From the NCBI GenBank assembly GCA_903884005.1, contig CAISDA010000013.1, forward strand, positions 106,037 through 170,036: DNA of 64,000 nt, given 5' to 3'. Positions 1,597-51,887 of the stretch are shown here, piece after piece. The position numbers and the translations under genes are program-made. The notes under the pieces are model-generated. The model made no database searches. It had not been told where the DNA came from and saw only the letters and a program-made list of their open reading frames with translations. The stretch's first letter is position 1; every line of letters starts with the position of its first letter. Source of the DNA: an uncultured Ignavibacteriota bacterium. GTDB taxonomy: Bacteria; Bacteroidota; Ignavibacteria; UBA10030; UBA8401.

Positions 1597-3165
1597 GTGA
1601 TTTCGTATCTTTGCAAAAAGGAACCAAGTTACATTGCAACAGGAAAAGATATGGAAACTCAATTGTTCACCGACCGCCATGCGGAGCGTCTCATCGGTGT
1701 ATTGAATTGTTTCGATCGAATCACCATGCAAGGGACACTGCGCCATCTGTGTTATGCTGATGGGATGACATCCTATCTATACGCACATCATATCCGCATC
1801 TTTGATTATCCGAAATTCGCGGAACCTTATCGCGAAAAACTTCGGGTAACGGCGGAAGAACATGCTGCAGCGAACGGATTGACGATTGAATTCATTCGGA
1901 AAAACAATTTCCGAAAAGAAAAACGCATCAAAGAAATAATCCAGGAACGTGGAGCACATCCTGGCATCGTGCATATATTTTCCGCGATGGAGCCTTGTGC
2001 ATCGTATCGGCCATGGCACGATAAGGCGACCGGTAAAACGTCATTACGGTATGCCGATGGCAAGTGCCTCCATTACTACTATTATTTTATCGATAAAGAT
2101 CTTGGACTCTGTTATCTGCGCGTGCCGACATGGTGTCCATTCCGTCTTCAGTTTTATTGTAATGGTCATTCGATTTTGGCAAAACAATTAGACCGTGCAA
2201 AGATCGGTTACACCATGGTTGAAAATGCTTTCATCTCTATAGACAACATGGAAAAAGCCAATACGCTCGCAGACTCATTCTCCGTTGAGAAACTTCATCA
2301 CCGGTTGGAAGAATATGTCCTTTTGTTTTGCCCCGTCGCTGCTGAACTGGGCGAGGGGTATCATTGGAGTTTATGGCAAACTGAATATTCGACGGATCTT
2401 CTCTTCCGAAAATCGAGCGATCTCCAAATGATTTACCCTCATATGGTAGAGACTTTAATCCACTCCGTAAAACCGGAGAATATCGCCACCTTTCTCGGCC
2501 AGAAAATCCACGGCAACTACAAGGGCGAGATGGGGAACAATTTCAATGTCCGAACGCTTGGCACGCGTATCAAACATTCAATGGGTCCGGTATCAATCAA
2601 ACTGTACGATAAAGCCGGTTCCGTGCTGCGCATCGAAACAACGGTCAATGATGTCACATTCTTCCGTGAATACCGTGATGTCAATTGCCGCAATGGTGAA
2701 ACCGAAACAAAGTGGGCGGCAATGAAAAAAAGTATTTACGGTCTTCCGAGACTGCGAGAACTACTCTTTGCAGCGAACCATCGCTACCTCGAATTTCTCT
2801 CCCATATCGAGACTCCGCATATTGGGGTCAAAGAACTTCGTGCCGTTACCACATCAAAATCGGTGCATGATCATTGCTTCAAAGGTTTTAACCCATTGGC
2901 AGAAGACGATTCCACGTTGTTCCGTGTGTTATCACGGGGTGAATTTACCATCACGGGAATTACCGCCGCATTATTACGAGCGCAACTGACGACGAAATCT
3001 CCTAATCAAATTAGTCGTCTGATCAAACGTCTGCGTGTTCATGGTATCATCAAAAAAATATCATCATGTTACAAATATCACCTGACCAAATACGGGCGCA
3101 AAATTGTCACGATCGCTCTTCGGTTACGTGAAGAATTTGTCATCCCTGAACTCGCGCGCTCTTAA
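1597..3165 (+). CDS. 522-aa protein of unknown function with C-terminal winged-helix (MarR-like) segment; possible mobile-element gene
   Basis: Long ORF; C-term NQISRLIKRLRVHGIIKKISSCYKYHLTKYGRKIV looks like a wHTH. It resembles long proteins often auto-annotated as MarR family (recalled, not searched). True start may be the internal ATG at 1651 (METQLFTDRHAERLIGVLNCFDRI). Confidence 0.7.
   Translation: MISYLCKKEPSYIATGKDMETQLFTDRHAERLIGVLNCFDRITMQGTLRHLCYADGMTSYLYAHHIRIFDYPKFAEPYREKLRVTAEEHAAANGLTIEFIRKNNFRKEKRIKEIIQERGAHPGIVHIFSAMEPCASYRPWHDKATGKTSLRYADGKCLHYYYYFIDKDLGLCYLRVPTWCPFRLQFYCNGHSILAKQLDRAKIGYTMVENAFISIDNMEKANTLADSFSVEKLHHRLEEYVLLFCPVAAELGEGYHWSLWQTEYSTDLLFRKSSDLQMIYPHMVETLIHSVKPENIATFLGQKIHGNYKGEMGNNFNVRTLGTRIKHSMGPVSIKLYDKAGSVLRIETTVNDVTFFREYRDVNCRNGETETKWAAMKKSIYGLPRLRELLFAANHRYLEFLSHIETPHIGVKELRAVTTSKSVHDHCFKGFNPLAEDDSTLFRVLSRGEFTITGITAALLRAQLTTKSPNQISRLIKRLRVHGIIKKISSCYKYHLTKYGRKIVTIALRLREEFVIPELARS
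1607..1619 (+). repeat. Left arm of 13-bp inverted repeat flanking the 522-aa ORF
   Basis: atctttgcaaaaa; perfect reverse complement of 3191-3203. It overlaps a TAnnTTTG-like motif (TATCTTTG, 1606-1613). Confidence 0.6.
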
Positions 3166-3190
3166 TTTGCACGCTGAATATTTGTGCTTT

Positions 3191-3203
3191 TTTTTGCAAA
3201 GAT
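3191..3203 (-). repeat. Right arm of 13-bp inverted repeat flanking the 522-aa ORF
   Basis: tttttgcaaagat; perfect reverse complement of 1607-1619. Confidence 0.6.
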
Positions 3204-3575
3204 TTTACTCTTAAGAGACTAAGAGATTAGTAACAATAAAATAACAATTTTATGGGAATAAAAAACATTTGAATAAAAAATATTTTTAACATGTATCCCC
3301 GCGTTATAGCTTATGAAACACAATCAATTTTTAAAATGAACATTCACTGTCTGCAATTAATAAAATCCGGATAAAATATTCCCCGTTCGTATGAATCGGT
3401 GATAAATGGTAGAATTGTGTGTGTGATAATCATTGATAAGTGTTCATTCAGTCTTGGTGAGATTACAGGCGATTCAAAAAAAAAGGCCTCTACCGAGCCA
3501 AAGGGTTCAGTAGAAGCTATCAAGATGATAATCCGGTTTTTTTGAATCTGCTACGGCTAATTGAATGATATATAT

Positions 3576-4514
3576 TTATTGCTGAGCATCTAGCCATCCA
3601 GCGCTCTCGGCCGTAGTACAAAAATCATTTAACAAATATAATTGGGACATATCAGTGATTACGTATCCATATATCCACATCTCACCCTTCGAATAATTAA
3701 TGGAGAAATTTAGATTGTCGGATGGAATTGTGTTGTCGTTCGATAAACTTAACCAATTTGCGTTGTTCTGAGTCCCATATGCTGACGTAAAGCGACCTAT
3801 GGTCCATTGTCGGCCAGGTGAATACTCCGAGTATGAATCATTCATCATTTTAACACAGGAATAGACAGTACTCAATGATTTAAATTTAAATCCGCTATCC
3901 GTCCACGGATAACTAGTACCCGGGTCTTGCTGAGACGTCATATGAAGTTGTGCACCGTGAGTCTGAATATAATCAGTAATTAGCCATACAAGGCTAGCAT
4001 TTGTTCCCCATTTTGTGAGAGGAGTATCAAAAACTTCATCCATTAAAAAATCATGAATTCCTAAATTATGATAATAGAGAATTAAATCTGAGTAATACTT
4101 TAAACTATCGCTATTGTTTTTAGCGGTGTCTAACCTAGCTCCACCTGGGGCTGGATCGGCAGGCCATTCCCAAGAAAAATATAAAATAATATTACTGGTT
4201 CCAAATACTGAGGCATTAGTAAGACATGTTTCGAACCAAAGACGCTCACCAGGCATATCCGAAATCATAATTTTTTGAAAGCCATAATAGTCCTTTAATA
4301 AATGCAGATTTGCAGCATTCCAAATGTTGTTCGTACTATGTGGTTCTATCCATATTCCCAATATTTTATCGGCTTTATAGCTAAAACCACCCGAGGTTGC
4401 TTTAACACTGTAATTCATTTTATAATCATTTTGTATTGCTGTTGTTGGTGACTCTTGTTTACATGAAATAAAAATTAAACAAATTAATGCCAAAACAAGC
4501 GAATAGTGTTTCAT
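3576..4514 (-). CDS. Putative lipoprotein of unknown function, possibly a glycosidase-like (TIM-barrel-like) fold
   Basis: Start chosen at MKHYSLVLALICLIFISC (lipobox ending in Cys) rather than the longer tracked ORF. The fold suggestion rests only on sequence texture (…HDFLMDEVFDTP…). Confidence 0.6.
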   Translation of the reverse strand: MKHYSLVLALICLIFISCKQESPTTAIQNDYKMNYSVKATSGGFSYKADKILGIWIEPHSTNNIWNAANLHLLKDYYGFQKIMISDMPGERLWFETCLTNASVFGTSNIILYFSWEWPADPAPGGARLDTAKNNSDSLKYYSDLILYYHNLGIHDFLMDEVFDTPLTKWGTNASLVWLITDYIQTHGAQLHMTSQQDPGTSYPWTDSGFKFKSLSTVYSCVKMMNDSYSEYSPGRQWTIGRFTSAYGTQNNANWLSLSNDNTIPSDNLNFSINYSKGEMWIYGYVITDMSQLYLLNDFCTTAESAGWLDAQQ

Positions 4515-5660
4515 TTGTATCTCCATTATAAAATGGGAAATAAATAGAGTGTATTGTACAATACACATCCTATAAAAACGCTATATAAAGCGTTATATAG
4601 TATAGGTTAATAACCAATTAATAGCAAAGGAATTAACGGTATGATAATATATCAAAAAAACCATTAAATACGTAGGAAAAAACCCATCCTAACCAATGTT
4701 GAAAAAACTATTCAAGACAAGGTGTAATTCTATACATAGGAAAATATATTTTTGTCATATAAATGGCAGGTAGTCCGGAACAATTGTTATCGATACGGCA
4801 TAATGAATAGCCTCGCTAATTAAATCCAAGGGAGAAAATCGATCCGACGTGGTCGAGTCGATGTGATGGTGGACGAATTCCAGGTTCAACATGGACAATT
4901 TGGTGCGAAGAGCCTGCGCTGACGCGATGGTCATGTAACGGACTTGTTCAATGCGCCAATGAAATGAATCCCCTGAAGTCGGCAAATGTTGCGGTACAAT
5001 AATGATCATCACCTTCATCCAGAAATACCAACCGGGTCTTGAAGAGAATATCTCGCGGCACTGCGGACGATGGATAGACGCACCACCGCGACCGCCGTTA
5101 CAAGGACAAGCAGAGTTGGAAGAATCACCGATCGATAAATGGATAATTCCGGAAAAGGAGCTCGCGGCATATCATGAGCTACGATAGAGAGAAACCGCGC
5201 GTGGCGCATTAATTGCCACCTCTGGACGAGGGATATTTTGATAGTGTTTGATCTAACATGCACGTTATTTCAGTTACAACCTAGGATCTACCCCATCTGG
5301 TCGGAAAAAACCATTTGTATTTCGATACGAATTGATCGACGATGCTTGATTCCGTTGCCGCCGAAAGGTATATTGACACATATGCATGATGAGATCGCGC
5401 ATCACCAGTTGATATTCCACTACGACAGTGGGCATTGATAGCATCAACAACTAAACAATTAAATATTATATCATACCAGATTGTGTGTTATCGAAGGCTG
5501 AACCGATAGATATCGGGTTCGCCTTGCCATTCGGCATGAAGCCTGTCGTAATTATTTACAAAATTATTAGCCTCGTGGGATTTTACCGACCTTACCTTGT
5601 ATTTCACATTGGATATCTACTCGGCGTCGTGTAGCTTTGGACGCGAAAGGATGAATTATA

Positions 5661-6938
5661 TTGGTCCAAGAAGGTCGCCGATGGATCGGTAAACTTGCGA
5701 CAGACGTGGTATTTCGGAACAGCATTATCCTCATTGCTGCGCGTATTGGTACTAAAATAGCAACATCGGTACTGCTGATCTATGTCGCACGTGTTCTCGG
5801 CGATGTACTCTTCGGCATGTTGTCGACAATTTTAACGATTACTGCTTTTTTCGGCATCTTTGAGGAATTCGGGTTCACAGTGCCGCTCATTCGCCGAATC
5901 GCTCTTCGTGAAGTACCTGCCGGACGTCTAATGGGGGAGGTGATGCTGCTGAAAAGCATCCTCGGAGTTGTCGCCTTCGTCGGACTGTTCATAACGACAT
6001 TCTTCTCATATCCTCTGCCCGCCATTTTCACCGTCTTCGGCATCAGCATGGTGCTCGAAATGATGAACGTGTCGCTGACGCGTGGGTTCGAAGGCCGCGA
6101 GAAGATGAGCAATATTTCGTTCATCCTGCTGTGGGAAAAAAGCGTCCTTTGCATTGTGGCCATCATCAGTCTCATGAGCGGATTGGGCTTGTTTGGAGTC
6201 GGTGTCGCATACATCGTCAGCAACATCGTGTCCATGGCCGTCAGTATGCACTATTGGAGCAAGGAAGGGGAACACATCGTCTTTTCCTTCCGGCAGGCCA
6301 GGGCGCTCGGGCTCATCAAGGAAGCGGTACCGTTCGCATTTGCCGCATTAATCGCGGTGCTCTATATGCGCATCGACACATTTTTCCTTGTATACTATCG
6401 TCCGGTCTCCGAAGTAGGGTGGTACAACGCGGCATATAGGATCAGTGACGCGCAATTGTTTATTCCTTCGGCGATTGTCGCATCCGTCTTCCCGATCCTG
6501 TCACGAACCTATGTCGGGAACTTGGGTGAATTTATGAGACACTATCAGCGGACATTTTTTACTCTCTTGATGATCGGATGCACGTTTGCGCTGGTTTGTT
6601 CCTTATTTGCAGAACCTATCATTTTGCTGTTGTATGGTCCAATGTATGCTCATTCGGCGGAGTCGTTTCGGTTGCTGTCGTGGGTAATGCCATTTTACTA
6701 CGTCAATGTGTTAATGGGGACGGCGCTAATTGCAATGGGGAAAGAGAAGGTCGTCACGGCGGTGATCACGATAGGGGCGATTACTAATATCGGATTGAAT
6801 GCTCTCGTCGTAAAGGAATACGGACAAGTGGGAGCGGCATCAGTTAAAATAATAACCGAAATAGTGGCGTTCTCATTTCAATTTTATTTTTTCCATCGAG
6901 TGCTTCCCATTCGCGGAACATATCTGCGGCTGTCATAA
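5661..6938 (+). CDS. Oligosaccharide flippase / polysaccharide biosynthesis membrane protein (MOP superfamily)
   Basis: 425 aa, about 12 hydrophobic segments, N-term IARIGTKIATSVLLIYVARVLGDVLFG typical of Wzx-like flippases; TTG start. Confidence 0.8.
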   Translation: MVQEGRRWIGKLATDVVFRNSIILIAARIGTKIATSVLLIYVARVLGDVLFGMLSTILTITAFFGIFEEFGFTVPLIRRIALREVPAGRLMGEVMLLKSILGVVAFVGLFITTFFSYPLPAIFTVFGISMVLEMMNVSLTRGFEGREKMSNISFILLWEKSVLCIVAIISLMSGLGLFGVGVAYIVSNIVSMAVSMHYWSKEGEHIVFSFRQARALGLIKEAVPFAFAALIAVLYMRIDTFFLVYYRPVSEVGWYNAAYRISDAQLFIPSAIVASVFPILSRTYVGNLGEFMRHYQRTFFTLLMIGCTFALVCSLFAEPIILLLYGPMYAHSAESFRLLSWVMPFYYVNVLMGTALIAMGKEKVVTAVITIGAITNIGLNALVVKEYGQVGAASVKIITEIVAFSFQFYFFHRVLPIRGTYLRLS

Positions 6939-6990
6939 GAGCATATACATTCAATATCGTTTCGTTGTGGGATATTAAATTAGCTTGAAA

Positions 6991-7032
6991 CGACAAACGC
7001 TCCGATCGGACCATCGATCGGAGCGTTTGTCG
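6991..7032. terminator. Bidirectional terminator hairpin between convergent genes
   Basis: Perfect 18-bp stem cgacaaacgctccgatcg / cgatcggagcgtttgtcg with 6-nt loop gaccat, between the flippase (+) and slipin (-) stops. Confidence 0.8.
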
Positions 7033-7053
7033 TATGTGTATGGATCGATTATG

Positions 7054-7848
7054 TTACGCGGGTTTCTTGGGAGTCTTGCCGTTGCCTACGGCATTTTCTG
7101 CCAAATTCATGAACGGCTTCAGGAATTCGATGGGGAACGGGAAGATCGTTGTCGAGTTGTTCTCCGATGCGATCTCGGTGAGCGTCTGCAAATAGCGGAG
7201 CTGCAGCGCGATCGGGTTGCGCTGTATGATCTCTGCGGCCTCGCCCAATTTCACGCTTGCCTGCAGTTCTCCTTCGGCGTGGACGATTTTCGCGCGGCGT
7301 TCTCGTTCGGCCTCGGCCTGTTTCGCCATGGCGCGCTGCATCTCGACCGGCAGATCGATCTGCTTCACTTCCACATTCGTCACTTTGATGCCCCACGGTT
7401 CGGTGTGCTGATCGATGATCATCTGCAGCTCGTGGTTGATCTTATCGCGCTGCGCAAGCAGGTCGTCGAGTTCGGACTGGCCGAGGATGCTGCGAAGCGT
7501 CGTCTGCGACATCTGGGAGGTTGCGTACAGATAATTTTCGACATTCACGATTGCTTTTTCAGGCAGCAAAACGCGGAAGTAAATGACCGCGTTGACCTTG
7601 ATTGAGACGTTGTCTTTCGTGATCACATCCTGCGGCGGCACATCGAGCACCACGGTGCGGAGGCTGACCTTCACCATGCGGTCGACAATGGGGATGAGGA
7701 GTATGAGCCCCGGGCCTTTTGTTTGAATGAGCCGGCCCAGTCGGAAGATCACGCCTCGTTCGTATTCCGAAAGGATCTTGATCGAATTCATCAGAATGAA
7801 TGCGACAAAAAAAATGATGATGAATAGTCCGAATAACGTTGGTTCCAT
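7054..7848 (-). CDS. Slipin / stomatin-like SPFH-domain membrane protein
   Basis: [72 protein letters not shown] is the canonical slipin N-terminus. Confidence 0.93.
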
Positions 7849-8015
7849 GGTGCTCTCCTGTCATTATGTGGTGTGTGGGTACGGTATCGGCCCGCTCGGG
7901 CGCCGGAGCGCGAGTGCGGGAGAAAACAAAAAGCAATTCGTGTGATGCGTGCGCGCCAATGCAACGGCAGCGGGTTACGTCGTAAAAAAAATGCGCCGCG
8001 GGCACTCAGATCGCG

Positions 8016-9311
8016 CTACTTCGCCGTCACCAGCAGTTTTAAGCCATCGACGTTCCTGACGATGATCTCCGCGCCCTGTGCGATGGCGCCTTCGGCGGCG
8101 ACGGCATTCCAGAATTCTCCATGCACTTTCACCTGTCCGAACGGGGAGAGCGTTGTGACGGCAATGCCTTCATCGCCGATGATGGACTGCAGTCCGGTGA
8201 CCGGGCGTCGTTGCTGTGCGCGGATGCCGGCGCCGAGGGCAAAAATAAAAAACGCCGCCGTGCAGAGCACCGAGGGAATGACGACTTCAAGCGACACCCT
8301 GACAAAGTCGAACGGCGAATCTGTTTGAAAGAGCATGATCGATCCGAAAAAGAGGGCGAGAATTCCGCCGATGGAAAGAACGCCGTAACTCGTGATTTTG
8401 ATCTCCAGGATAAAAAGGATGATGCCGACCACGATCAGGGCGAGTCCCGCATAATTCACCGGCATCGTATGGAAGGCATACAACGCAAGAATGATCGCGA
8501 TCACTCCTGCCACGCCGGGAAACACCGCTCCGGGATTATAGAGTTCAAAAAATAATCCGTAGATGCCGATCAGAAACAGGATGTACGACACGTTCGGATC
8601 GCTCAGCATGTTCAGGATCTGATACGCCCATCCCATGTCGTGTTCCTCAATCGCCGCTCCCGCTATTGCGAGCGTCAATGTGCCGGCATCGGTCTCGACA
8701 ATTTTTCCGTTCAGCGAATCCAGGAGCGCGCCCCGATCGACGGCGATGAAGTCTATGATGTGCTTTGCAAGCGCTTCGTTCTCCGTGATGGAGACACTCT
8801 TGCGCACCGCGTCTTCAGCCCACTCGACATTGCGCTTCCGTTTTTCGGAGATCGAGCGTATGAATGCGGCGGCATCGTTTGTCACCTTCCCCGACATCAC
8901 GGAATCCATCTGGCCTTGTGTGCTCACAGGATGTGCCGCGCCGATGTTGGTGCCGGGAGACATGACGGCGATGTTCGCCGCGAGCGTGATAAAGACTCCG
9001 GCCGATGCCGCCTGAGCTCCCTGCGGAGAGACGTAGACGACGATGGGGACGGGCGACGTCAGGAAGTCTGTAACGATGGAACGCGTCGATTTCAACAATC
9101 CACCCGGGGTGTTGATTTCGACGATCACAAGCTGGGCATCGTTTTTTTTCGCGCGGGCGATGCCTTCGTGGACATAGTCCGAGACGGCGGGAGTAATGGC
9201 GCCGTCAATTTTCAGGACATGGATTGATTTCGCACCGGCAACAGCCACTGGTGGAGACAACAGCAAAAAAGATAGTAATAACGCGGTAACGGTGATTGCG
9301 ATGAGTTTCAT
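8016..9311 (-). CDS. NfeD-family membrane-bound ClpP-like serine protease (long form)
   Basis: VLKIDGAITPAVSDYVHEGIARAKKNDAQLVIVEINTPGGLL…SPQGAQAASAGVFITLAANIAVMSPGTNIGAAHPV; start taken at MKLIAITVTALLLSF signal peptide. Confidence 0.92.
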   Translation of the reverse strand: MKLIAITVTALLLSFLLLSPPVAVAGAKSIHVLKIDGAITPAVSDYVHEGIARAKKNDAQLVIVEINTPGGLLKSTRSIVTDFLTSPVPIVVYVSPQGAQAASAGVFITLAANIAVMSPGTNIGAAHPVSTQGQMDSVMSGKVTNDAAAFIRSISEKRKRNVEWAEDAVRKSVSITENEALAKHIIDFIAVDRGALLDSLNGKIVETDAGTLTLAIAGAAIEEHDMGWAYQILNMLSDPNVSYILFLIGIYGLFFELYNPGAVFPGVAGVIAIILALYAFHTMPVNYAGLALIVVGIILFILEIKITSYGVLSIGGILALFFGSIMLFQTDSPFDFVRVSLEVVIPSVLCTAAFFIFALGAGIRAQQRRPVTGLQSIIGDEGIAVTTLSPFGQVKVHGEFWNAVAAEGAIAQGAEIIVRNVDGLKLLVTAK

Positions 9312-9442
9312 AGATGTGGTCCCGGATTCTTCCTTTGCAAGATAATACGAAGAAGGAATGTAGGATGCAACTTCGATGAACAGACTTACGTTCTTCAAGA
9401 AAATCATTTCATTATTTGAAAAATTCTTCTTATCCTTAATAT

Positions 9443-9799
9443 ATGAAGAATATACTTCAACGCCAGTCGATCCTTCTCGACCTGGATAATACTGCGCTGG
9501 TCTTTAACAAGAACGGCACGTTCAGTGAACATCCGAAGCTTCGGCTTCTGCTGAAGCATTACCGTGTTATTCTCTATTCCGCTCGCGATGATATAGAAGA
9601 ATTCGCAAAGCGCTGGGGCGTACCGTATATATGGAAGGGGTATAACGACCTGTTCCCCCAGGCCGATTTTCTCATAGACGATCAAAGCGACGAATACGAG
9701 CATCTTGTCGATGTGAAGAAAACGTACAGTTCCATCAACCGGTTCGTTGCTGCGCAGCTCAAACCGCAGCGTAAACGAATCGTGCCGAAAAAACGATAG
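9443..9799 (+). CDS. Small HAD-superfamily-like hydrolase
   Basis: ILLDLDNTAL (HAD motif I), VILYSAR (motif II-like), FLIDDQ (motif IV-like); 118 aa. Confidence 0.6.
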   Translation: MKNILQRQSILLDLDNTALVFNKNGTFSEHPKLRLLLKHYRVILYSARDDIEEFAKRWGVPYIWKGYNDLFPQADFLIDDQSDEYEHLVDVKKTYSSINRFVAAQLKPQRKRIVPKKR

Positions 9800-9961
9800 G
9801 GGTCTCACGCCATTCCGTCAGGAACATCCTCCTCACGCCGCCGGCGCCTCATCAATCACCGTTTCTCACCACCGTCCACTCGGGGGAGCGCGAGTGTTCC
9901 TGCAATCCAGCCGTTCATCCGCCGTGACCTGTTGATTGTTCATGGGGGCGGGACGGAAAAC

Positions 9962-12709
9962 ATGCGTATGTATTTAAAGACTATGAAAACACTGACCGTG
10001 GTACTGTTCTGCCTGCTGTTCTTCACCGGCGCCGGGAGTGCCAGCGCACAATCCGATCCCGTCGTCCGCGCGTGTGACCTGCAAACGTCCGTGCAGAAAC
10101 TTGCAGTGACAGGGACCGTGATGTACATCGCGGCGCATCCCGACGACGAAAACACGGCGCTCCTTGCATATTTCTCAAAGGGAAAAAAATATCGAACCGT
10201 CTACTTGTCGCTGACGCGTGGAGAGGGCGGACAAAATATTCTCGGCACTGAAAAAGGAGCCGACCTCGGCGTCATTCGTACGCAGGAACTGCTCGCGGCT
10301 CGGCGCGTGGATGGCGCGGAGCAGATGTTCACGCGCGCGATCGATTTCGGTTTTTCGAAGACGTCCGACGAAACGATCGCGATGTGGACGAAAGACTCTG
10401 TCGTCGCAGACATTGTCTGGGCAATACGCACTGTGCGGCCGGATATCATCATCACACGATTCTCGCCGACTGAAGGCGGACATGGAAACCATACCGCGTC
10501 GGCGATCCTGGCGGAAGCGGCGTATAAGATCTCCGGCGATCCCTCGGCGTATCCCGAGCAGCTGCGCTTTGTGCGTCCATGGAAAGCAAAAATATTATTT
10601 TTCAACCGGCTCAACTTTGGCATTCGAGTGACCGTGAAGGATCCGGACGACCTCGAGATCGATACCGGCATCTTCGATCCGCTGTTGGGCCTCTCGTACA
10701 CCGAGGTTGCCGGCATCAGCCGGAGCCTTCATAAAACACAGGGGATGGGATCCGCACAGAGGCGCGGCGCTAACCCGGAATATTTCCGGCTCACGGATCA
10801 GACTCTGGAGGCTGGCACTACCGACCGCGCTGCTGCACACGGAACCCGGAACTCCGCCGCCCTGGACACAGGCACGAGAGTTCGCCGATCCGGCACGGAC
10901 CTGTTCGCCGGCATCGACGCATCGTGGAATCGGTTTTCAGGAGGGGCATCGATCGATCGGTTATTGCGTCAGGCAGGCACCGACTTCGAGCCGGCACATC
11001 CTGAAAAAATCGCCGGCCTCCTGCTCAAGGCATTGAAGAAGGTGAAGCTGCTCGCGAATGAGAACCCAAGGACGCTCGATCCGATGATCCTCCGGAAGCA
11101 GAAGGAACTCGTTGCCGTGCTGAGTGCCGCTCTCGGCATTCGATGCGATATCGTATCGTCATCGTCTGCCGTGCTGCCAGGCCATATACTGCAATGCGAC
11201 GCGGAGATCATTCAGCGCTCCGGGCCTCAGATCACTCTGCGATCAATCAGCGCTCCGATGCTGGGCATCGATACCAGCTTCTGCGACACACTGCATATCA
11301 ATAGCACGAAGAAGATAAGCCTCGCCGCTTCAATCCCTGCATCGATGCGTGCCACGGCCCCGTACTGGCTCCAGCGGCCGGCCGCAGGCAACCTGTATCG
11401 AGTGCCCTCACAGGAGTTTTGTGGCCTTCCCGAAAATCCCGACTCGCTCACGGCGGCGGTGTCTGTGATGATCAGCGGCGAATCCATGACTCTGACTGTG
11501 CCGGTCCGCTTCCGTCGCATCGATCCAGTCGCCGGTGAAGTGTTTCGTCCGGTGGTGATCCTGCCGAGGCTGGATGTCTCGACCACTCAGAATGACCTGC
11601 TGTGGACCGGGCCGGGCAGGAAGCAAGTTTCTGTACATCTGGTTTCGAACGACTCGCCTCTCTCCGGACGGCTCACGCTCAACACGCCGTCGGGGTTCAG
11701 AATGGCTTCCGCTCCGGTATCCTTTGCAATGGCCAGGGTTGGAGAGGAACAGAATTTCGTTCTCACCGTTGAGGCCGATTCGACCGCCGCGGCTGGAACC
11801 ATCACCCCGGTCGCGACCGTGTCGGGCAGCACTTCCACTGCGGCAGCGCTTACGACAGCGGGAAGCTCAGCGGCATCATCGTCGGCATCGCCGGTGCTCG
11901 AACAATGGACGCAGCACGGGGCCGATATTTCATACCCTCACATCGTTCCGCAGTTTGTGATGCATACGGCGCAACTCAAGGCTATGCGGGCAGATATCAG
12001 GGTCACTAAAAGCAAAATCGGCGTCATTGCGGGCACTGGCGACGAGGTTCCCGCCGCTCTCCGCCTCTGCGGATACGACGTCGTCATGATCGACGACGAT
12101 TCATTGCGTTCAGGCATATTGACGCCATTCGACGCGATCGTGGTTGGTGTGCGCGCCTACAATGTCCGCACACAAGTCCAGCAGTCGAATCCCCGTTTGC
12201 TCGAGTATGTGCAAGGCGGAGGAACACTGGTTGTCCAATATCAGACCCCGGGTAAAGAAGTCGAATCCATCGGTCCTTATCCCTTTAGAATATCGCGCAA
12301 CCGTGTCACGGACGAACACGCCGAGATGTCGGTCGCCGTTCCACCTGCAGCCGCCCACGATCAGACCTCGACTCAGGGTGCCGGGATGCTTTCTGCGGGA
12401 CCCGCATCGGCGGCAACGTTAACTTTGCGGCTGATGACTGTGCCGAACCGTTTGAAGAATGACGATTTCAACGGATGGGTGCAGGAGCGGGGATTGTATT
12501 TCGCGGACAAGTGGGATCCGTTGTATGAAACGCCGTTCTCGTGCCACGATCCGAACGAACCGCCGACACAGGGAAGCGTGCTTGCGGCGCCGTATGGACG
12601 TGGAGTGTATTGCTACACGGGGCTCGCATTCTTCCGGCAATTGCCCGAAGCAGTGCCGGGGGCGTTCCGGCTGTTTATCAATTTACTCGAATTGAAGCAA
12701 GCGAGGTAG
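9962..12709 (+). CDS. Secreted PIG-L family (LmbE-like) deacetylase, large form
   Basis: MYIAAHPDDENTALLAYFSKGKKYRTVYLSLTRGEGGQNILG and GGHGNHTASA motifs; signal peptide at MRMYLKTMKTLTVVLFCLLFFTGAGSASAQ. Confidence 0.88.
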   Translation: MRMYLKTMKTLTVVLFCLLFFTGAGSASAQSDPVVRACDLQTSVQKLAVTGTVMYIAAHPDDENTALLAYFSKGKKYRTVYLSLTRGEGGQNILGTEKGADLGVIRTQELLAARRVDGAEQMFTRAIDFGFSKTSDETIAMWTKDSVVADIVWAIRTVRPDIIITRFSPTEGGHGNHTASAILAEAAYKISGDPSAYPEQLRFVRPWKAKILFFNRLNFGIRVTVKDPDDLEIDTGIFDPLLGLSYTEVAGISRSLHKTQGMGSAQRRGANPEYFRLTDQTLEAGTTDRAAAHGTRNSAALDTGTRVRRSGTDLFAGIDASWNRFSGGASIDRLLRQAGTDFEPAHPEKIAGLLLKALKKVKLLANENPRTLDPMILRKQKELVAVLSAALGIRCDIVSSSSAVLPGHILQCDAEIIQRSGPQITLRSISAPMLGIDTSFCDTLHINSTKKISLAASIPASMRATAPYWLQRPAAGNLYRVPSQEFCGLPENPDSLTAAVSVMISGESMTLTVPVRFRRIDPVAGEVFRPVVILPRLDVSTTQNDLLWTGPGRKQVSVHLVSNDSPLSGRLTLNTPSGFRMASAPVSFAMARVGEEQNFVLTVEADSTAAAGTITPVATVSGSTSTAAALTTAGSSAASSSASPVLEQWTQHGADISYPHIVPQFVMHTAQLKAMRADIRVTKSKIGVIAGTGDEVPAALRLCGYDVVMIDDDSLRSGILTPFDAIVVGVRAYNVRTQVQQSNPRLLEYVQGGGTLVVQYQTPGKEVESIGPYPFRISRNRVTDEHAEMSVAVPPAAAHDQTSTQGAGMLSAGPASAATLTLRLMTVPNRLKNDDFNGWVQERGLYFADKWDPLYETPFSCHDPNEPPTQGSVLAAPYGRGVYCYTGLAFFRQLPEAVPGAFRLFINLLELKQAR

Positions 12710-12787
12710 TACAGTGAAACTGCCGCATATTTCCGATCGGCATCCGGAGATGGGGTTTCTCAGCATACACACACTTGGACTGAAAGC

Positions 12788-13360
12788 ATGGCGATGAAAA
12801 TATACACAAAAACGGGCGACACGGGAGAAACGGGACTCTTTGGCGGACAACGCGTGCCGAAGGACGCACTGCGCATCGAGGCGTATGGAGGCGTGGACGA
12901 AGTCAACTCGGCTATCGGCATGGTGCAATCGATGCCGCGGCCGGAGAAACTCGTGCCGATGCTGGCGCAGATACAACACGACCTTTTCATTGTGGGAGCG
13001 GATCTGGCCACGCCGCGTGTGCAGGCGGGCATGCACATCGAACGAGTGGAGGCTGCGCACAGCGATGTGCTCGAGCAGTATATCGATGAGCTGGAAGTTG
13101 AGCTGCCCCCGTTGCGAACTTTCATACTGCCGGGCGGGACGCCGACAGCGTCGCACCTGCATTTTGCCCGGACGGTATGCCGGCGTGCCGAACGGAACGT
13201 TGTGAGTCTGTCGCGCATGGACGATATCGGCGACGCTGTGCTCATGTACATGAACAGGCTATCCGATTTCCTCTTTGTCGCGGCGCGATATGCAAACCAT
13301 GCAGCGGGCGAAGCGGAAATACCGTGGGTGAGCAGCCGCAACACGGCCGTAAAAAAATGA
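12788..13360 (+). CDS. Cob(I)yrinic acid a,c-diamide adenosyltransferase (PduO type)
   Basis: MKIYTKTGDTGETGLFGGQRVPKDALRIEAYGGVDEVNSAIG is diagnostic. Confidence 0.95.
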   Translation: MAMKIYTKTGDTGETGLFGGQRVPKDALRIEAYGGVDEVNSAIGMVQSMPRPEKLVPMLAQIQHDLFIVGADLATPRVQAGMHIERVEAAHSDVLEQYIDELEVELPPLRTFILPGGTPTASHLHFARTVCRRAERNVVSLSRMDDIGDAVLMYMNRLSDFLFVAARYANHAAGEAEIPWVSSRNTAVKK

Positions 13361-13531
13361 TGCGGCGCGGAAAATACCCTTTTTAATTCGTTGTTTTTTT
13401 TCGTATTATTGCACACATGTACCAACGGTCTTCACGAGCCGTTTCGGCCGATGAGACCATGAACACGTCATCCACATTTTTTTTTACATTACAGCACCAT
13501 CATATTGGTTCACTGAGGAGGTTTTTGACTT

Positions 13532-14689
13532 ATGCGTATCGGTATTTTGACAGGCGGTGGAGATGTACCCGGACTTAATCCCTGCATCAAAGCAGTTGTC
13601 TATCGCGCCATGGACCAGGGTGCAGAGGTGATCGGCATTCGGCGCGGATGGGGGGGATTGCTCAACTACGACTTTAATGCAAACGACAATAGCAATTTCA
13701 TCATCCATCTCAATAAGGGCAATACGCGCGTGGTCGACCGCACCGGCGGAACATTCCTCCACACCTCGCGCACGAATCCTTCAAAAGTGCGAAAGGCGGA
13801 TATTCCGAATCATCTATACTCCGATGAATTCAATAATCTGCAGGACGACGACAAAGTTGATTTCACGCCGCACGTGCTGAAGGTGATCGCTCATAACAAG
13901 ATCGATGTGATCATCTCCATCGGCGGCGACGACACGCAAAGTTACGCACTGCGCCTTCATCAGGAAGGTGTTCCCGTCGTTTCCATTCCGAAAACGATGG
14001 ACAACGACGTGTTCGGAACCGACTATTGCATCGGTTTTTCGACAGCCGTAACGCGCTCCGTCGACTTCATCACGAATCTGCGCACGGTGGCCGGATCGCA
14101 CGAGCGCATCGCGGTGGTTGAATTATTCGGCCGCAATTCCGGAGAAACCTCGCTCGTGTCCGCATATCTTGCAGGCGTCGATCGGGCATTGATCTCCGAA
14201 GTGCCGTTCGATCTCGACAAGCTTGCAAAATATCTTATGGACGACAAGAAACGCAATCCCAGCAACTATGCGATCATGACCATTTCCGAAGGCGCTCATC
14301 CGATCGGCGGGAGCGTCATCGAATCGGGTCCCGAAGACGCCTACGGCCATCGGAAGATCGGCGGCATCGGAGAATATCTTGAAGCGCAGATCACGAAAAA
14401 AATGGGCGTCCATACAGTGTACCAAAAAGTCGCGTATCTGATGCGCTCGGGCGAGCCCGACGCGCTCGACCGCATGGTAGCAATAAGCTACGCGAGTCTT
14501 GCCACTGATCTCGTGCTTCGCAAAGAGTACGGCAAATTAGTCGCGCTCAAGGGCGGCAGGTATACAACCGTGCCCATCGAGACATTGACGCAAGGCGTGA
14601 AGCGTGTTGATGTTGATGAATTGTACGATTCGGAACATTACCGGCCGAAAGTGTCGCACGTCTTCGGCAAACCGATGTTCCTGTATTGA
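13532..14689 (+). CDS. 6-phosphofructokinase (PfkA superfamily; sequence signature suggests PPi dependence)
   Basis: [23 protein letters not shown]…SIGGDDTQS…[18 protein letters not shown]…[18 protein letters not shown]. Confidence 0.93.
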
Positions 14690-14757
14690 GAGAAGAAAAA
14701 AGTGCCGGTGCATGTCGCTGACGCGACAGAGTATCGGTGAACGCAACGAACAGCACG

Positions 14758-14788
14758 CAACAGCCTGGCGCCACACGCCGGGCTGTTG
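14758..14788. terminator. Hairpin between convergent genes
   Basis: caacagcc…ggctgttg stem with additional inner pairing, between the phosphofructokinase (+) and cytochrome-like lipoprotein (-). Confidence 0.65.
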
Positions 14789-15244
14789 TCATTTGATCGT
14801 ATTGGTGGCGCCTTCGAGTATCCATTGTTTCAGGCCCTGCCGCTGATTCAAGGTCAGGAGCCTGGTGGGCGGCATCGGGGTGAGACCGAATTTGCCTTCG
14901 ATCCTCCAGACGAGCCTGCTCAGATTCGTATCGCGCACGACCACGACATCGTAGAACCGCTGACGTATGCCTGAGTAGCCTGTCAGGTCAAGATCGCCGG
15001 CGAACGTTTTCGTGTCGTGGCAGCCGCTGTAAGTGCACGCTATGTTGAAGAGGGGCTGCACTGAATTGTCGTAACTGATGTTCTTAGCCGGAAAAACAAT
15101 GTCGTCGAGCGCACTGACGGTGTTGCTGTCCTTGCACGAAGCCAAGAGCAGTGCCGCGGTGAAGATCACCGCCATGGTGCTGTGTCTGGTGCTGAACTGG
15201 TGCATCATACCTCGGTTGTTGTGAACAGTAGACTCCCTGTGCAT
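14789..15244 (-). CDS. Small lipoprotein with putative c-type heme motif CX4CH
   Basis: Signal sequence ending LLLASC (lipobox) and NIACTYSGCHDTKTFAGDLDLTGY; start may be one of several internal Met codons. Confidence 0.65.
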   Translation of the reverse strand: MHRESTVHNNRGMMHQFSTRHSTMAVIFTAALLLASCKDSNTVSALDDIVFPAKNISYDNSVQPLFNIACTYSGCHDTKTFAGDLDLTGYSGIRQRFYDVVVVRDTNLSRLVWRIEGKFGLTPMPPTRLLTLNQRQGLKQWILEGATNTIK

Positions 15245-15361
15245 CTCATCGTACTGCTAATATAATGATTCTCACGTAAAAAAGTTGTACACTTCATAAA
15301 AACCGGGCGTCGCAGCGTGCGGAGTGCGCATCAACTCAATCAGCGTGGAGCGTCTCACATC

Positions 15362-16069
15362 GTGAAAATTATTTTGTGGCCTGCAATCATTCTTCTCATC
15401 GTCAGTGCAGAGGCTTCGGCACAGGATTTCCAATCGTCGCTGCGCGAGAGCGATCTGTCGGAGTTCCGCGCGCTGGGCGGCGGCGCCGCGGCGAACGTGT
15501 TTGAATCCCGTTCGGACAACACACTGCCCGACTCTCTGCGCATTAAATTTACAACGCCGATGATGTTTCTGGAATACCGCCAGATGGATATCCGCATCGC
15601 CGTCTGCTACAGCCATTATGAACTGCACGGCGCGGGCAAGGCATCGTACTCGATCTATGCAGACGGAGCCACGGACGTACCGATCATTGCCCGTCGATCG
15701 GGCGGCCTGTATCTGCCGATCATTATCTCTACAAATTATGTGAAGGCCGAAGATATCGGCAGTTCATCCAGTATCTTCGATGTCGGCAGCATCGGCATCG
15801 GCACCGGAATAAAATATCGCTACCTTTCCGAAAGCTTCGGACTGCAGGCGTATGCCGGAGCGGTGATCCATTACAGCACGGTCGGGTTCAGCGTCGAGCA
15901 CGGCTCGTCGTCCTCGATGCGGGCGGAACTAGAGTTCCTGTTCCCGGACCTCGTGTGGAAGGGAGCCGTGGCAGGTTATCGATTCGATGCGCAGCAGTGG
16001 ATCATGACCGATGAGAAATTAAATTACAGCCGCCGGTATCACGGCGTATTTATCGGATTGTTTTTCTGA
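15362..16069 (+). CDS. Exported protein of unknown function (probable outer-membrane beta-barrel)
   Basis: GTG start gives (M)KIILWPAIILLIVSAEASAQ signal peptide; alternating beta-like segments and aromatic C-terminus (…RRYHGVFIGLFF). Confidence 0.6.
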   Translation: MKIILWPAIILLIVSAEASAQDFQSSLRESDLSEFRALGGGAAANVFESRSDNTLPDSLRIKFTTPMMFLEYRQMDIRIAVCYSHYELHGAGKASYSIYADGATDVPIIARRSGGLYLPIIISTNYVKAEDIGSSSSIFDVGSIGIGTGIKYRYLSESFGLQAYAGAVIHYSTVGFSVEHGSSSSMRAELEFLFPDLVWKGAVAGYRFDAQQWIMTDEKLNYSRRYHGVFIGLFF

Positions 16070-47217: not shown

Positions 47218-47253
47218 CGAATGTCTATTTTAACATTATTCATGGAGTGTCAT

Positions 47254-48147
47254 ATGAAAGTATGGAAATTTATTCCGCTGCTGATGATGTGCGTGCAGTC
47301 GGTCCTTCCGGGTCAACTACAGGTTGTGTCGACGTACGGCTATATCGGTGACATCGTTTCGCGCATTGGGAAAGAACGTGTGGAAGTCGTTACGCTCGCG
47401 CGAGGCGATTACAATCCTCACGTCATCATTCCCAAGCCATCATACATCGCTAAATTACGAAGAGCCGACCTCCTTATCATCAACGGTGGGCAATTGGAAA
47501 TTGGATGGCTTCCGCAAATTATCCGACAGGCGAACAATGGCGCCGTGCAGCCGGGAGGACGCGGATTTCTCGACCTCTCGATGCATGTGCATCTGATCGA
47601 TGTACCGACAGGCGTCTCCCGTGAACTCGGCGATGTGCATCCTGAAGGAAACCCGCATTTTTTCCTGGACCCGGATAATATCCCGGCCATTGCCAATGCA
47701 GTCACGGCACGATTAGTCGAACTCGATTCGGATAATCAGGCATATTATGAAGCAAACAATAAGGAATTGTATGCTCTCTGGCAGCAGAAGATGAAAGGAT
47801 GGGAGGCGAAATTAAAACCGTTCAAAGGGGAGAAGATCGTCGAATATCATCGAATCTTCGATTATTTCCTGCATCGTTTTGGGTTCACCATCGTCGGCAC
47901 GATCGAGCCGCTTCCTGGAATTCCGGCGACAACAAAACATATTGCCGATGTCGAGAAATTGATCGGCCAAGAACATGTGAAGTTCATCTTTCAGGATGTC
48001 TATAATCCACAGGATGCCTCGGAGTACATCGCGAAGCGGCTTAATGTGAAACTTCTGATCCTGCCCCACGATGTCGGCGCGGTGAAAGAGGCGGACAATG
48101 TGTTCAGCGTATTTGACGAAATCGTGAGGAGACTGACCAATGTTTGA
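47254..48147 (+). CDS. Metal ABC transporter substrate-binding protein (ZnuA/cluster A-I family)
   Basis: VVSTYGYIGDIVSRIGKERVEVVTLARGDYNPHVIIPKPSYIAKLRRADLLIINGGQLE…GNPHFFLDPDN…FQDVYNPQDASEYIAKRLNVKLLILPHDVG. Confidence 0.9.
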   Translation: MKVWKFIPLLMMCVQSVLPGQLQVVSTYGYIGDIVSRIGKERVEVVTLARGDYNPHVIIPKPSYIAKLRRADLLIINGGQLEIGWLPQIIRQANNGAVQPGGRGFLDLSMHVHLIDVPTGVSRELGDVHPEGNPHFFLDPDNIPAIANAVTARLVELDSDNQAYYEANNKELYALWQQKMKGWEAKLKPFKGEKIVEYHRIFDYFLHRFGFTIVGTIEPLPGIPATTKHIADVEKLIGQEHVKFIFQDVYNPQDASEYIAKRLNVKLLILPHDVGAVKEADNVFSVFDEIVRRLTNV

Positions 48148-48910
48148 TATCCTTCTTTCCGCATTCGTGCTCTCTGTTGTACTGCTGGGGATCCATTCTT
48201 TTTTCGGACTGGAAATCATCAGAAGGGGAATCATTTTTACAGACCTTGCCATCGGGCAGATGTCCGCGCTGGGAGCGGCACTGTCGATCCTTTTTCTGGA
48301 TGGTAAATATATTTACCCCGTGTCTCTCTCCTTTGCACTGCTTGCCGGATTGCTCATCTCGCTGGCATCCAAACGTACATCGTCACACGAAGCATTCATC
48401 GGTTTGCTCTACGCCTTCGGCATTTCGGGCGTGTTCATCGTCCTCGCCAAATCGGCGCACGGGATGGAGATGTTCGACAAGTTGATGGCCTCAGATATTC
48501 TCTTCACACCATGGTCGGATATCATTGAAACAGCGATTTTATATTCGCTTCTAGGCCTGTTCCTGATTTTCATCTACCCGCGCATGAAGGGCTTTTGGAA
48601 AGATACCCTCTTCTTTGTGTCGTTTGCGGCTACCGTGACCAGTTCCGTTCGATTGGCGGGTGTTCTGATCGTATTTGCCTTGCTCGTCGCGCCGGCATTC
48701 ATCGCCATCCGACTGAACAAATGGAAAATTCTTCTTGTGGCATGGATCGTCGGGATCGCCGTCAACCTGATCTCCATCACCGTTTCGTACAACCTTGATC
48801 TGCCAACCGGTTATACACTGGTCTTTTGTCATGCGCTGCTGGCGTTGATCGTGGCGTTCGCTCTTCCGATGACGAAACCACAGGAGAAGAAAGTGGAGAC
48901 CGCAGGATGA
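48140..48910 (+). CDS. Metal ABC transporter permease (ABC-3 / ZnuB family)
   Basis: FFGLEIIRRGIIFTDLAIGQMSALGAALSILF … VRLAGVLIVFALLVAPAFIAIRL; overlaps the upstream gene by 8 bp. Confidence 0.9.
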   Translation: MFDILLSAFVLSVVLLGIHSFFGLEIIRRGIIFTDLAIGQMSALGAALSILFLDGKYIYPVSLSFALLAGLLISLASKRTSSHEAFIGLLYAFGISGVFIVLAKSAHGMEMFDKLMASDILFTPWSDIIETAILYSLLGLFLIFIYPRMKGFWKDTLFFVSFAATVTSSVRLAGVLIVFALLVAPAFIAIRLNKWKILLVAWIVGIAVNLISITVSYNLDLPTGYTLVFCHALLALIVAFALPMTKPQEKKVETAG

Positions 48911-49130: not shown

Positions 49131-51143
49131 ATGGCCGCGGACATATTGCTTCTCGGGGAATCAGATTGTGGCACATCTGCATGCATTAATTTGCTGCTCG
49201 GTGTACCGGTTTTGCCAGAGAAGACCGCATCGACGAATTTGCCTGTGATTCGTATCCAGGCGGGCAAACCATCGGGACTCTGGCTGAGGCAGGCGGGTGC
49301 TGAATTCACGATGTCGCCCCTGACCGGATTGAACGAATGCACGGACGATTGGACTTCATTCGAGCACGTCGAAATTATGGTGGAAGGCCACCAGTTGTTG
49401 GATAAGGGGATCGTTCTCTGGGATACGCCGAGCGTCAATACGCCGATCAAGTATCAACAAGATCACCTTCACAAGTTTCTTACGGACAGACAAAGCATTT
49501 TTTCAACGGTACTGTTTTTTGTGCCGAACAAACTCACCGCATCGAGCATCGCATTCCTGAAACAATGGCCTGCAATGCTTCGCCGCACAACCCTAGTCCT
49601 CAACATTACCGAGCGAAAATCCGAAAATGAATGTCAGTTGATCGAATCGGCGGTCAGGGAATTGTCCGCTCGCGAATTGGATGACATCCCGGTAAAACTC
49701 CTCTACACAGGCGAAGTGTATGAAGAGTTTTCCTCGTTATCGAAAGAAATGAGGCGAAAATATTCTGATGTTGAATTGCTTGCGGGATGGAATGATATTC
49801 GCGAGGCTATCGATGAGATCGCACGTAAATATAATTCGGAGACAGTAGAAACATCTGTGTCCGACTTTCTCGAAAAATCCGTGAAATGGGAGGAGATCGA
49901 TTATACGGACGTCAGCGAAACCGTATTGCGTCAGTATGCGGAAAATAATGTTGCAGGCGCGCAATATGATCTGGCAAAGCGATTGCTTCTAAAAGAAGAA
50001 TATTATGGCGCTGTTAAATATCTGCGTGCGCTGGCCGATAACAATCACGGCGATGCCATGTATGCCCTTTCTCAATGTTATCTCGAAGGAAACGGTGTCG
50101 AGCAGAACATGGATGCTGCGATAAGTTGGAACAGGACCGCAGCCGACGCAGGAGTCACCGAGGCTCAATTTCTGATGTATACCTATCTTTCAAATGGGAA
50201 ACACATGAAGGAGAATATGCCTCGGGCGATTTCATATTTAAAGATGGCGGCATATTCTCAGCATGCTCATGCAAGTGCATTGCTGGGCCAGTTGTATTTG
50301 GCCGGCATCGATATTCCGGTCAATTATGATCTGGGCGTGAAATACCTCACTGCTGCTGTCGATGCCGGCGACGCCGATGCGATGGTGGCGTTGGCAGTCA
50401 GCCATAAAAAGGGACTCGGGGTGAAGAAAGACCTGGTGGAAATGTACAGGCTTCTGGAAAGAGCCGCCGAATTGAATCAACCAGACGCGCTAGTGGCGCT
50501 TGGCGACGCTTATGCAGCCGGGACAGATGTAGACGTCGATAAAAATAAAGCGTTCAAATATTATATGCGGGCTGCCGATGCCTGCGCCGCAGATGCACAA
50601 ATGCGTGTCGGCACCTGTTATGAAAACGGCATCGGGGTCAATGCGGACCCGGCATTGGCAATTGCCTATTACACGAGGGCGGCAGAAAATGGAGATGAGT
50701 CTGCACAGCAGCATCTCGGTGCCGTGTATAATAACGGGGTATTAGTACCGAAGGATGTCGAAAAAGCAAAACACTGGCTGCGACTTGCATCGGCATCAGG
50801 CAATACGACGGCTCGGGACCTCCTCTATGAAATAGGTGATGATTCGCCCGACAATTCGGGAGCGCGCGGCAGCGGCAAATGCTTTGTTGTGACGGCTTCA
50901 TTCGGCGACGAGCACGCTCCGGAAGTGCTCTTCTTCCAAACATTCAGGGATACGATATTGGCCCGTTACGCGGCGGGGCGAAAATGCATTTCACTGTACT
51001 ACAGGGTCGGTCCATACGGTGCGCGGATCATCGGCAGACACAGGGTGTTGCGCGCATTGACCAGGCGGATACTTCTTCGCCTGCAGCACTGCCTCACCAT
51101 TGTGTATGGCAGCGAGTGCGGCGGACGAAACGATCGTTCCTAA
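49131..51143 (+). CDS. Dynamin-like (pseudo)GTPase domain + Sel1-like repeats + CFI-box-like C-terminal domain
   Basis: N-term ADILLLGESDCGTSACINLLLGVPVLP…STNLPVIRI…WDTPS; Sel1 repeats (AGAQYDLAKRLL…GDAMYALSQCYLEGNGVEQNMDAAISW…); C-term CFVVTASFGDEHAPEVLFFQTFRDTILARYAAGRKCISLYYRVGPYGARII. Confidence 0.75.
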   Translation: MAADILLLGESDCGTSACINLLLGVPVLPEKTASTNLPVIRIQAGKPSGLWLRQAGAEFTMSPLTGLNECTDDWTSFEHVEIMVEGHQLLDKGIVLWDTPSVNTPIKYQQDHLHKFLTDRQSIFSTVLFFVPNKLTASSIAFLKQWPAMLRRTTLVLNITERKSENECQLIESAVRELSARELDDIPVKLLYTGEVYEEFSSLSKEMRRKYSDVELLAGWNDIREAIDEIARKYNSETVETSVSDFLEKSVKWEEIDYTDVSETVLRQYAENNVAGAQYDLAKRLLLKEEYYGAVKYLRALADNNHGDAMYALSQCYLEGNGVEQNMDAAISWNRTAADAGVTEAQFLMYTYLSNGKHMKENMPRAISYLKMAAYSQHAHASALLGQLYLAGIDIPVNYDLGVKYLTAAVDAGDADAMVALAVSHKKGLGVKKDLVEMYRLLERAAELNQPDALVALGDAYAAGTDVDVDKNKAFKYYMRAADACAADAQMRVGTCYENGIGVNADPALAIAYYTRAAENGDESAQQHLGAVYNNGVLVPKDVEKAKHWLRLASASGNTTARDLLYEIGDDSPDNSGARGSGKCFVVTASFGDEHAPEVLFFQTFRDTILARYAAGRKCISLYYRVGPYGARIIGRHRVLRALTRRILLRLQHCLTIVYGSECGGRNDRS

Positions 51144-51212
51144 ATTATTGCACACCAACGATGTACTACTATCATTTGCGTCGATCAAACCATTTGCGGA
51201 AGGATAAGGACT

Positions 51213-51887
51213 ATGGCAAATCCACAATACAGCAGGCTCGAGGCTGAAGAGCGTGTTGCACGCTATGAAGGAATGATCAATTCGCTGCGGGAAGAACGGA
51301 ATATTATTTCCGAAACGAATTCGATCCTCAGTCTTCGACGGGAAGCGAACGACAACTCCCTGGAAGAATATACGTCGCTTCAGACCGAAACCGCGCTCAG
51401 GTCGACGGCCCGCGATGTGGAACGTTTAAAAACTATTCCCATCATTCATATCGGCGAGCATGTCTATCATCCCGCTGAACAATATTCCGTGCTTGAGCGG
51501 GCCATACAGAAGCGTGAACAGGAGATAACGAAACTGGCGCTGAAAGTGCCGTACACCGACGCCTTGAAGGAGGAGGGAAATTATCTGTTCGAGTTGGGAT
51601 ACTTTGTGCGGAGCGCGCGTGACTATGATGCCCTGCAGGTGCGCATCAGCCGTCTGTATGAGGAACGAGAACACCTGTTGGATTATTTAAACGGCGAAAA
51701 ACCGCAGAGCATTGCGAGGGCGCGGGAAATCGAAAAGCTCAGCGTGAGGAACATGGTGGTAAAGCTTCAGAAGGAATTGCCGGAGAAGACACTCGACGAA
51801 TTGTTATGGCACATTGCCGATAAGGTCAACAAAGCGTACGAGTCGATTAAAGCCGCGTATTATTATAAGGGAAAAAAGAGCGCATAA
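51213..51887 (+). CDS. Coiled-coil protein of unknown function
   Basis: 224 aa, Glu/Arg/Leu-rich heptad-like segments; 70 bp downstream of the Sel1 gene on the same strand. Confidence 0.65.
   Translation: MANPQYSRLEAEERVARYEGMINSLREERNIISETNSILSLRREANDNSLEEYTSLQTETALRSTARDVERLKTIPIIHIGEHVYHPAEQYSVLERAIQKREQEITKLALKVPYTDALKEEGNYLFELGYFVRSARDYDALQVRISRLYEEREHLLDYLNGEKPQSIARAREIEKLSVRNMVVKLQKELPEKTLDELLWHIADKVNKAYESIKAAYYYKGKKSA

Follow-up and report, generated by a model that had tools for sequence, protein, structure and literature searches.

A probable dynamin-type pseudo-GTPase with Sel1 repeats and a CFI box, and its intact relatives in gene clusters with paired dynamin-like proteins

What can a dynamin-type G domain do in a protein that has lost the hallmark residues of its nucleotide site, and which other proteins belong with it? 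The question is raised by a gene in a 64,000-nucleotide stretch of the genome of an uncultured Ignavibacteriota bacterium (GCA_903884005.1, contig CAISDA010000013.1), called the window here. A first-pass annotation of the letters had read its product as a degenerate dynamin-like GTPase fused to roughly eight Sel1-like repeats and a CFI-box-like C-terminus, and had suggested that, as a non-hydrolysing GTPase scaffold, it may act together with the product of the coiled-coil gene that follows, in a small two-component module that is membrane-associated or serves stress or defence. Our analysis bears out the domain architecture and makes a non-hydrolysing scaffold likely; the two-gene module is not supported. 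The conserved partners of the family, found in other genomes, are two dynamin-like GTPases and a J-domain protein.

Results

Domain make-up and predicted fold

The open reading frame begins with ATG and has 670 codons for protein; its parts are set out in Table 1. The isolated G domain matches Pfam Dynamin_N over residues 5-157 with 25.5 bits (E 1.6e-5), just below the gathering score of 27, a low score that we put down to divergence because the intact homologues described below reach 46.8-55.5 bits (three scanned against Pfam). The Sel1 match is strong (PF08238, 144.9 bits), and the predicted structure has helix pairs at a 36-residue spacing from residue 263 to 567, mostly with pLDDT of about 75-88. 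NCBIfam NF041770 covers a C-terminal stretch of 67 residues (584-650 of 670) with 65.6 bits against a cut-off of 40, and no other CFI-box protein was found in the 4.5-Mb genome. Matches to the NCBIfam models MotX, MerG and AlgK lie far under their cut-offs and are cross-matches of the Sel1 repeats, and the PADLOC hit to PtuA that the full-length sequence gives (21.3 bits), which falls within these repeats as well, was discounted.

When the whole protein was modelled from two sequences, the G domain came out poorly, with residues 1-113 mostly at pLDDT under 50. An AlphaFold2 model of the G domain from an alignment of eight G domains, which leans on the intact homologues, reached pLDDT 73 and pTM 0.70. 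When this predicted N-domain was compared with the PDB by Foldseek, the top match was IniA (6j73, E 1.5e-5), followed by EHD4 and mitofusin 1 (E from 1.5e-5 to 8e-4 across the three), with TM-scores near 0.5 for the 250-residue query, a moderate value. The N-domain is thus predicted to have the dynamin G-domain fold, with the G domains of IniA, mitofusin and EHD proteins as its nearest solved counterparts. Unlike these, the window protein has neither the G1 Lys nor the G3 Gly, and where a dynamin has its stalk and the part that binds membrane it has a Sel1 solenoid.

Table 1. Positions of the features in the window and of the intact gene clusters in other genomes
Feature	Position	Strand	Basis or remark
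Pseudo-GTPase (dynamin type) - Sel1 repeats - CFI-box-CTERM, 670 aa	49131..51143	+	ORF, Pfam, NCBIfam, homologue
Dynamin-type G domain (predicted fold), residues 1-240	49131..49850	+	Dynamin_N, AlphaFold2, Foldseek
G1/P-loop remnant GESDCGTS, residues 9-16	49155..49178	+	alignment
G3 remnant DTPS, residues 98-101	49422..49433	+	alignment
G4-position motif NITE, residues 158-161	49602..49613	+	alignment
ERKSENECQLIES, residues 161-173	49611..49649	+	alignment, window-sister comparison
Sel1 repeats, about eight, residues 263-567	49917..50831	+	PF08238, predicted helix pairs
CFI-box-CTERM domain, residues 584-650	50880..51080	+	NF041770
224-aa helical neighbour, not a conserved partner	51213..51887	+	not seen beside homologues
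L033 (G691) cluster	6592-8466, 8463-10211, 10213-11010, 11104-13173, 13255-15927		two G-Sel1 genes last
L034 (G647) cluster			contig ends inside G-Sel1
L058 (G732) cluster	1776-3641, 3638-5383, 5385-6266, 6270-8960		
L059 (G707) cluster		-	two G-Sel1 genes

Intact relatives and their gene cluster

A full-length homologue, the sister, is present in one other genome of the same genus (L002, L004); it is 56% identical to the window protein, and its reading frame stays open over 662 codons. With a profile built from both G domains, a search of 98 genomes of the window's order gave nothing outside the genus. Class-wide, the same profile gave strong matches in a second family (f14), and a search of that family's order added two genomes. 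The proteins found there join an intact dynamin-type G domain to Sel1 repeats (G-Sel1 proteins). Six were aligned, and their G domains are 36-40% identical to that of the window protein. Sel1 repeats were detected by Pfam in the window, sister and L033 proteins, and through cross-matches to Sel1-type NCBIfam models in those of L058 and L059.

In all four of these genomes the gene order is the same: two genes for dynamin-like proteins (DLP1 and DLP2) come first, a J-domain gene follows, and G-Sel1, in one or two copies, stands last (Table 1). Several of the genes overlap or are separated by a few bases, which fits an operon. Few genomes carry the intact family, 4 of the 166 in its order, so the evidence for linkage comes from four loci, and at one of these a contig end cuts the cluster. 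Translations of the J-domain proteins of L034, L058 and L059 contain the HPD motif; the J gene of L033 ends early within the J domain and may be frameshifted. The L033 copy, at this single locus, has as neighbours genes for a phage-type replisome organizer and a lytic enzyme.

Both L059 copies carry a CFI box (NF041770, 84.0 and 78.6 bits), so the domain order of the window protein, G domain, Sel1 repeats, CFI box, also occurs in members with intact G1 and G3. A CFI-box tree did not separate an ancestral from a non-ancestral fusion of this domain. Between the Sel1 repeats and the CFI box the L059 proteins (L059:5808-9310) have a zinc-ribbon-like stretch (CPSC...CPIC / CPFC...CPNC) that is missing from the window protein.

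A tree that uses the DLPs as outgroup joins the window protein to its sister (support 100/100) and nests the two within the G-Sel1 clade (100/100), with a long stem of 1.04 changes per column. Profile search, alignment and tree show that the G domain of the window protein shares a common ancestor with those of the intact family, and Sel1 repeats are present in both.

The order DLP1-DLP2-J-G-Sel1 is absent at the window and sister loci. The window genome, an estimated 100% complete, encodes no DLP; the remaining Dynamin_N hits there are short matches in frames about as long as those of Era/Der-type GTPases and one ABC-F-type ATPase. Presumably the window lineage once had the DLP/J/G-Sel1 module. 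A different arrangement was seen in another genome of the class (G384, L068:7057-15515), where two adjacent dynamin-like genes are followed by unknown genes and then a third DLP-like gene; this operon has no match to the G-Sel1 or the J-domain component.

Loss of the nucleotide-site motifs

The P-loop without its Lys and the DTPS at G3 were read correctly in the first-pass annotation, and the relatives give them a context. At G1 all six intact homologues have GEFSTGKS and the sister has GDSRSMRF; at G3 the six have DTPG and the sister DTPE. Neither the window protein nor its sister therefore has the GxxxxGK(S/T) or the DxxG of a functional dynamin-type GTPase. The G2-position Thr is kept in the window protein and lost in the sister. 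At the G4 position the intact homologues have NIKE, NVKE or YIKE in place of the canonical NKxD, so that even these members are unusual there. Overlapping this position, ERKSENECQLIES does not differ between the two degenerate proteins, and the intact homologues share part of it, E161, E167, C168 and E172 being invariant across the family; it is a candidate for a retained interaction or contact surface.

GTP binding has probably been lost in the window protein, though a missing P-loop Lys does not by itself prove this. Some pseudo-GTPases elsewhere keep nucleotide binding, and the domain might bind GTP or GDP in a non-canonical way and act as a slow nucleotide switch; its predicted globular structure would fit this, as would the G2-position Thr and the DTP of G3 that the window copy retains. 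The G1 Lys and the G3 Gly are gone, however, and the sister lacks seven of the eight P-loop residues as well as the G2 Thr, which makes a nucleotide dependence shared by the two proteins unlikely. We regard a slow switch as rather improbable.

Constraint on the degenerate proteins

Ninety-three positions are invariant in the six intact G domains. Within the P-loop the window protein keeps 4 of 8 of these and the sister 1 of 8; outside it they keep 50 and 43 of 85. The P-loop of the window protein has thus not decayed faster than its other conserved positions (4/8 against 50/85). Between the two genes the differences per codon position are 0.31, 0.24 and 0.62, with pN 0.28, pS 0.77 and pN/pS about 0.36, the synonymous sites being saturated. 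Identity is 49% in the G domain, 63% in the Sel1 region and 54% in the CFI box. The two proteins, the only degenerate members known (one of them from a 71%-complete genome), are under protein-level constraint. A P-loop kept no better than the rest, in a protein so constrained, indicates that the nucleotide site has lost its special protection while the whole protein is still under selection.

The same figures bear on the idea that the gene, left without DLP partners, has lost its function and is itself being lost. The missing partners, the P-loop positions that are retained no better than the remainder of the G domain and the lack of any order-wide match beyond the genus would all be in keeping with such decay. 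Against it, each copy can be read over its full length, some 660-670 codons, without meeting a stop, pN/pS is about 0.36 with synonymous sites saturated, and identity is still 63% in the Sel1 region and 56% overall; decay is an improbable account of this gene.

Neighbourhood of the gene

The 224-aa coiled-coil gene is real and lies on the same strand, 70 bp after the window frame. Its product has no meaningful family score in Pfam, NCBIfam, PADLOC or PHROGs. The gene is not downstream of the sister homologue, where the stretch directly downstream is present in the assembly (estimated 71% complete) and the neighbours, judged by eye, encode a methyl-accepting chemotaxis-type protein on the upstream side and a prepilin-like one on the downstream side; nor was it seen at the four loci of the class-level homologues. 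A family-wide genome search found it in the window genome and in no other. Class-wide, the protein had one match, to a 51-residue C-terminal stretch in an unrelated context: its last 50 or so residues (KLQKELPEKTLDELLWHIADKVNKAYESIKAAYYYKGKK, window 51717-51884) have a 47% identical counterpart, a small motif, towards the C-terminal end of a 326-aa protein of genome G341 (L067:1480-2460) that otherwise gave no match.

The gene neighbourhood in the window consists of a zinc ABC transporter and cell-surface proteins. A ZnuA-type substrate-binding protein and an ABC-3 permease (47221-48910) lie directly upstream on the same strand, and this zinc/metal uptake operon has no evident tie to the G-Sel1 finding. 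With the coiled-coil gene absent beside the homologues we rejected the partnership, and a two-gene defence or stress module, for which the shared strand and the 70-bp gap spoke, is very unlikely given that the genes are unlinked in every homologue locus read, that the rest of the family lacks the coiled-coil gene, that the window neighbours are not defence genes and that PADLOC matches neither the G domain nor the coiled-coil protein.

Searches of viral contigs and phage records gave no match to the window protein, and plasmid matches were distant dynamins at 24-36% identity; a phage or plasmid origin was rejected. In one case, on plasmid NZ_CP133095.1 of P. aeruginosa, three dynamin-family genes in a row (L065:4744-13898) have close by them genes for a WYL-domain regulator, an EH-signature protein and a DEAD/DEAH helicase, in what looks like a defence island.

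Discussion

The protein combines these three domains, has lost the G1 and G3 motifs and stands in a genome without the dynamin-like pair. We give a probability of roughly 60% to the reading that it is an orphan pseudo-GTPase, derived from the G-Sel1 component of a DLP/J-protein module and now most likely a nucleotide-independent adaptor. Both that present function and the working of the intact module outlined below are inferred.

Among the known systems closest to the intact clusters is Eleos. PADLOC matches DLP1 and DLP2, along much of the two proteins, to its LeoBC (49.5 bits) and LeoA (85.7 bits) models, whereas the NCBIfam LeoA-type model reaches 18.3 bits on the cluster DLPs against a cut-off of 325. 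By these scores the cluster proteins resemble LeoA and LeoBC without being members. The clusters also differ in adding the J-domain and G-Sel1 proteins, and the window genome, having no DLP pair, lacks the LeoA plus LeoBC genes that mark Eleos. Most bacterial DLPs are paired in operons, as stated in the relevant passages of PMC6104087, and the Campylobacter cj-dlp1/2 operon is described there as putatively holding an HcpA-like protein, of a Sel1-type family. The Campylobacter jejuni Cj-DLP1/Cj-DLP2 operon (cj0411-cj0413) thus resembles the clusters in having a DLP pair beside a Sel1-type gene. In it, however, the Sel1-type protein is separate from any GTPase, and those passages mention neither a J-domain protein nor a CFI box. 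For another class, conflict systems built around a GTPase and including HSP70, GrpE and DnaJ parts have been described (PMC7159879).

The CFI box is C-terminal on proteins of the phylum with varied N-terminal parts, which in the other NF041770 proteins are TPR-like, zinc-ribbon, nuclease-like or other; in the stretches read, no evident dynamin G domain occurs in CFI-box proteins outside the G-Sel1 family. Many of the C-terminal tails are hydrophobic and may make membrane contact. The open-licence papers searched do not name the CFI box. In those papers and the family databases searched, a DLP pair with a J-domain protein and a GTPase-Sel1 protein is not described, and the papers contain no description of the pseudo-GTPase either. 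The clusters would add new parts to the dynamin-pair operon, and the orphan derives from the same family as the G-Sel1 proteins.

In the intact module, the DLP pair would bind and tether membrane as a hetero-oligomer. The G-Sel1 protein could dock through its G domain on the DLPs or on itself, its Sel1 solenoid bringing clients, and the J protein would recruit Hsp70, whereupon the assembly would be taken apart. In the window lineage, which has no DLP pair and a decayed nucleotide site, the fold, solenoid and CFI tail remain constrained. The window protein would then most likely serve as a nucleotide-independent adaptor, with the G domain used for protein contact, the Sel1 repeats for client binding and the CFI box for placement. 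A more tentative proposal, and one we think rather doubtful, is that the set DLP1 - DLP2 - J-domain protein - GTPase-Sel1(-CFI) makes up an Eleos-like module, so far undescribed, for membrane remodelling or defence, where a third GTPase, bearing a solenoid, and a chaperone helper control the dynamin pair, and that the window protein is a free-standing pseudo-GTPase which has kept the adaptor half without the dynamins. A defence role of the intact module is possible because its DLPs resemble those of Eleos.

Dynamin pairs are common in bacteria, though their control and disassembly are poorly known. A cluster that joins such a pair to a J-domain protein and a solenoid-bearing third GTPase is a testable candidate for that control. 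In the window protein and its sister the nucleotide site has been lost to different degrees, G1 and G3 in both and the G2 Thr in the sister only, with the rest kept, and the two offer a natural comparison for asking which tasks such a domain can carry out in the absence of GTP.
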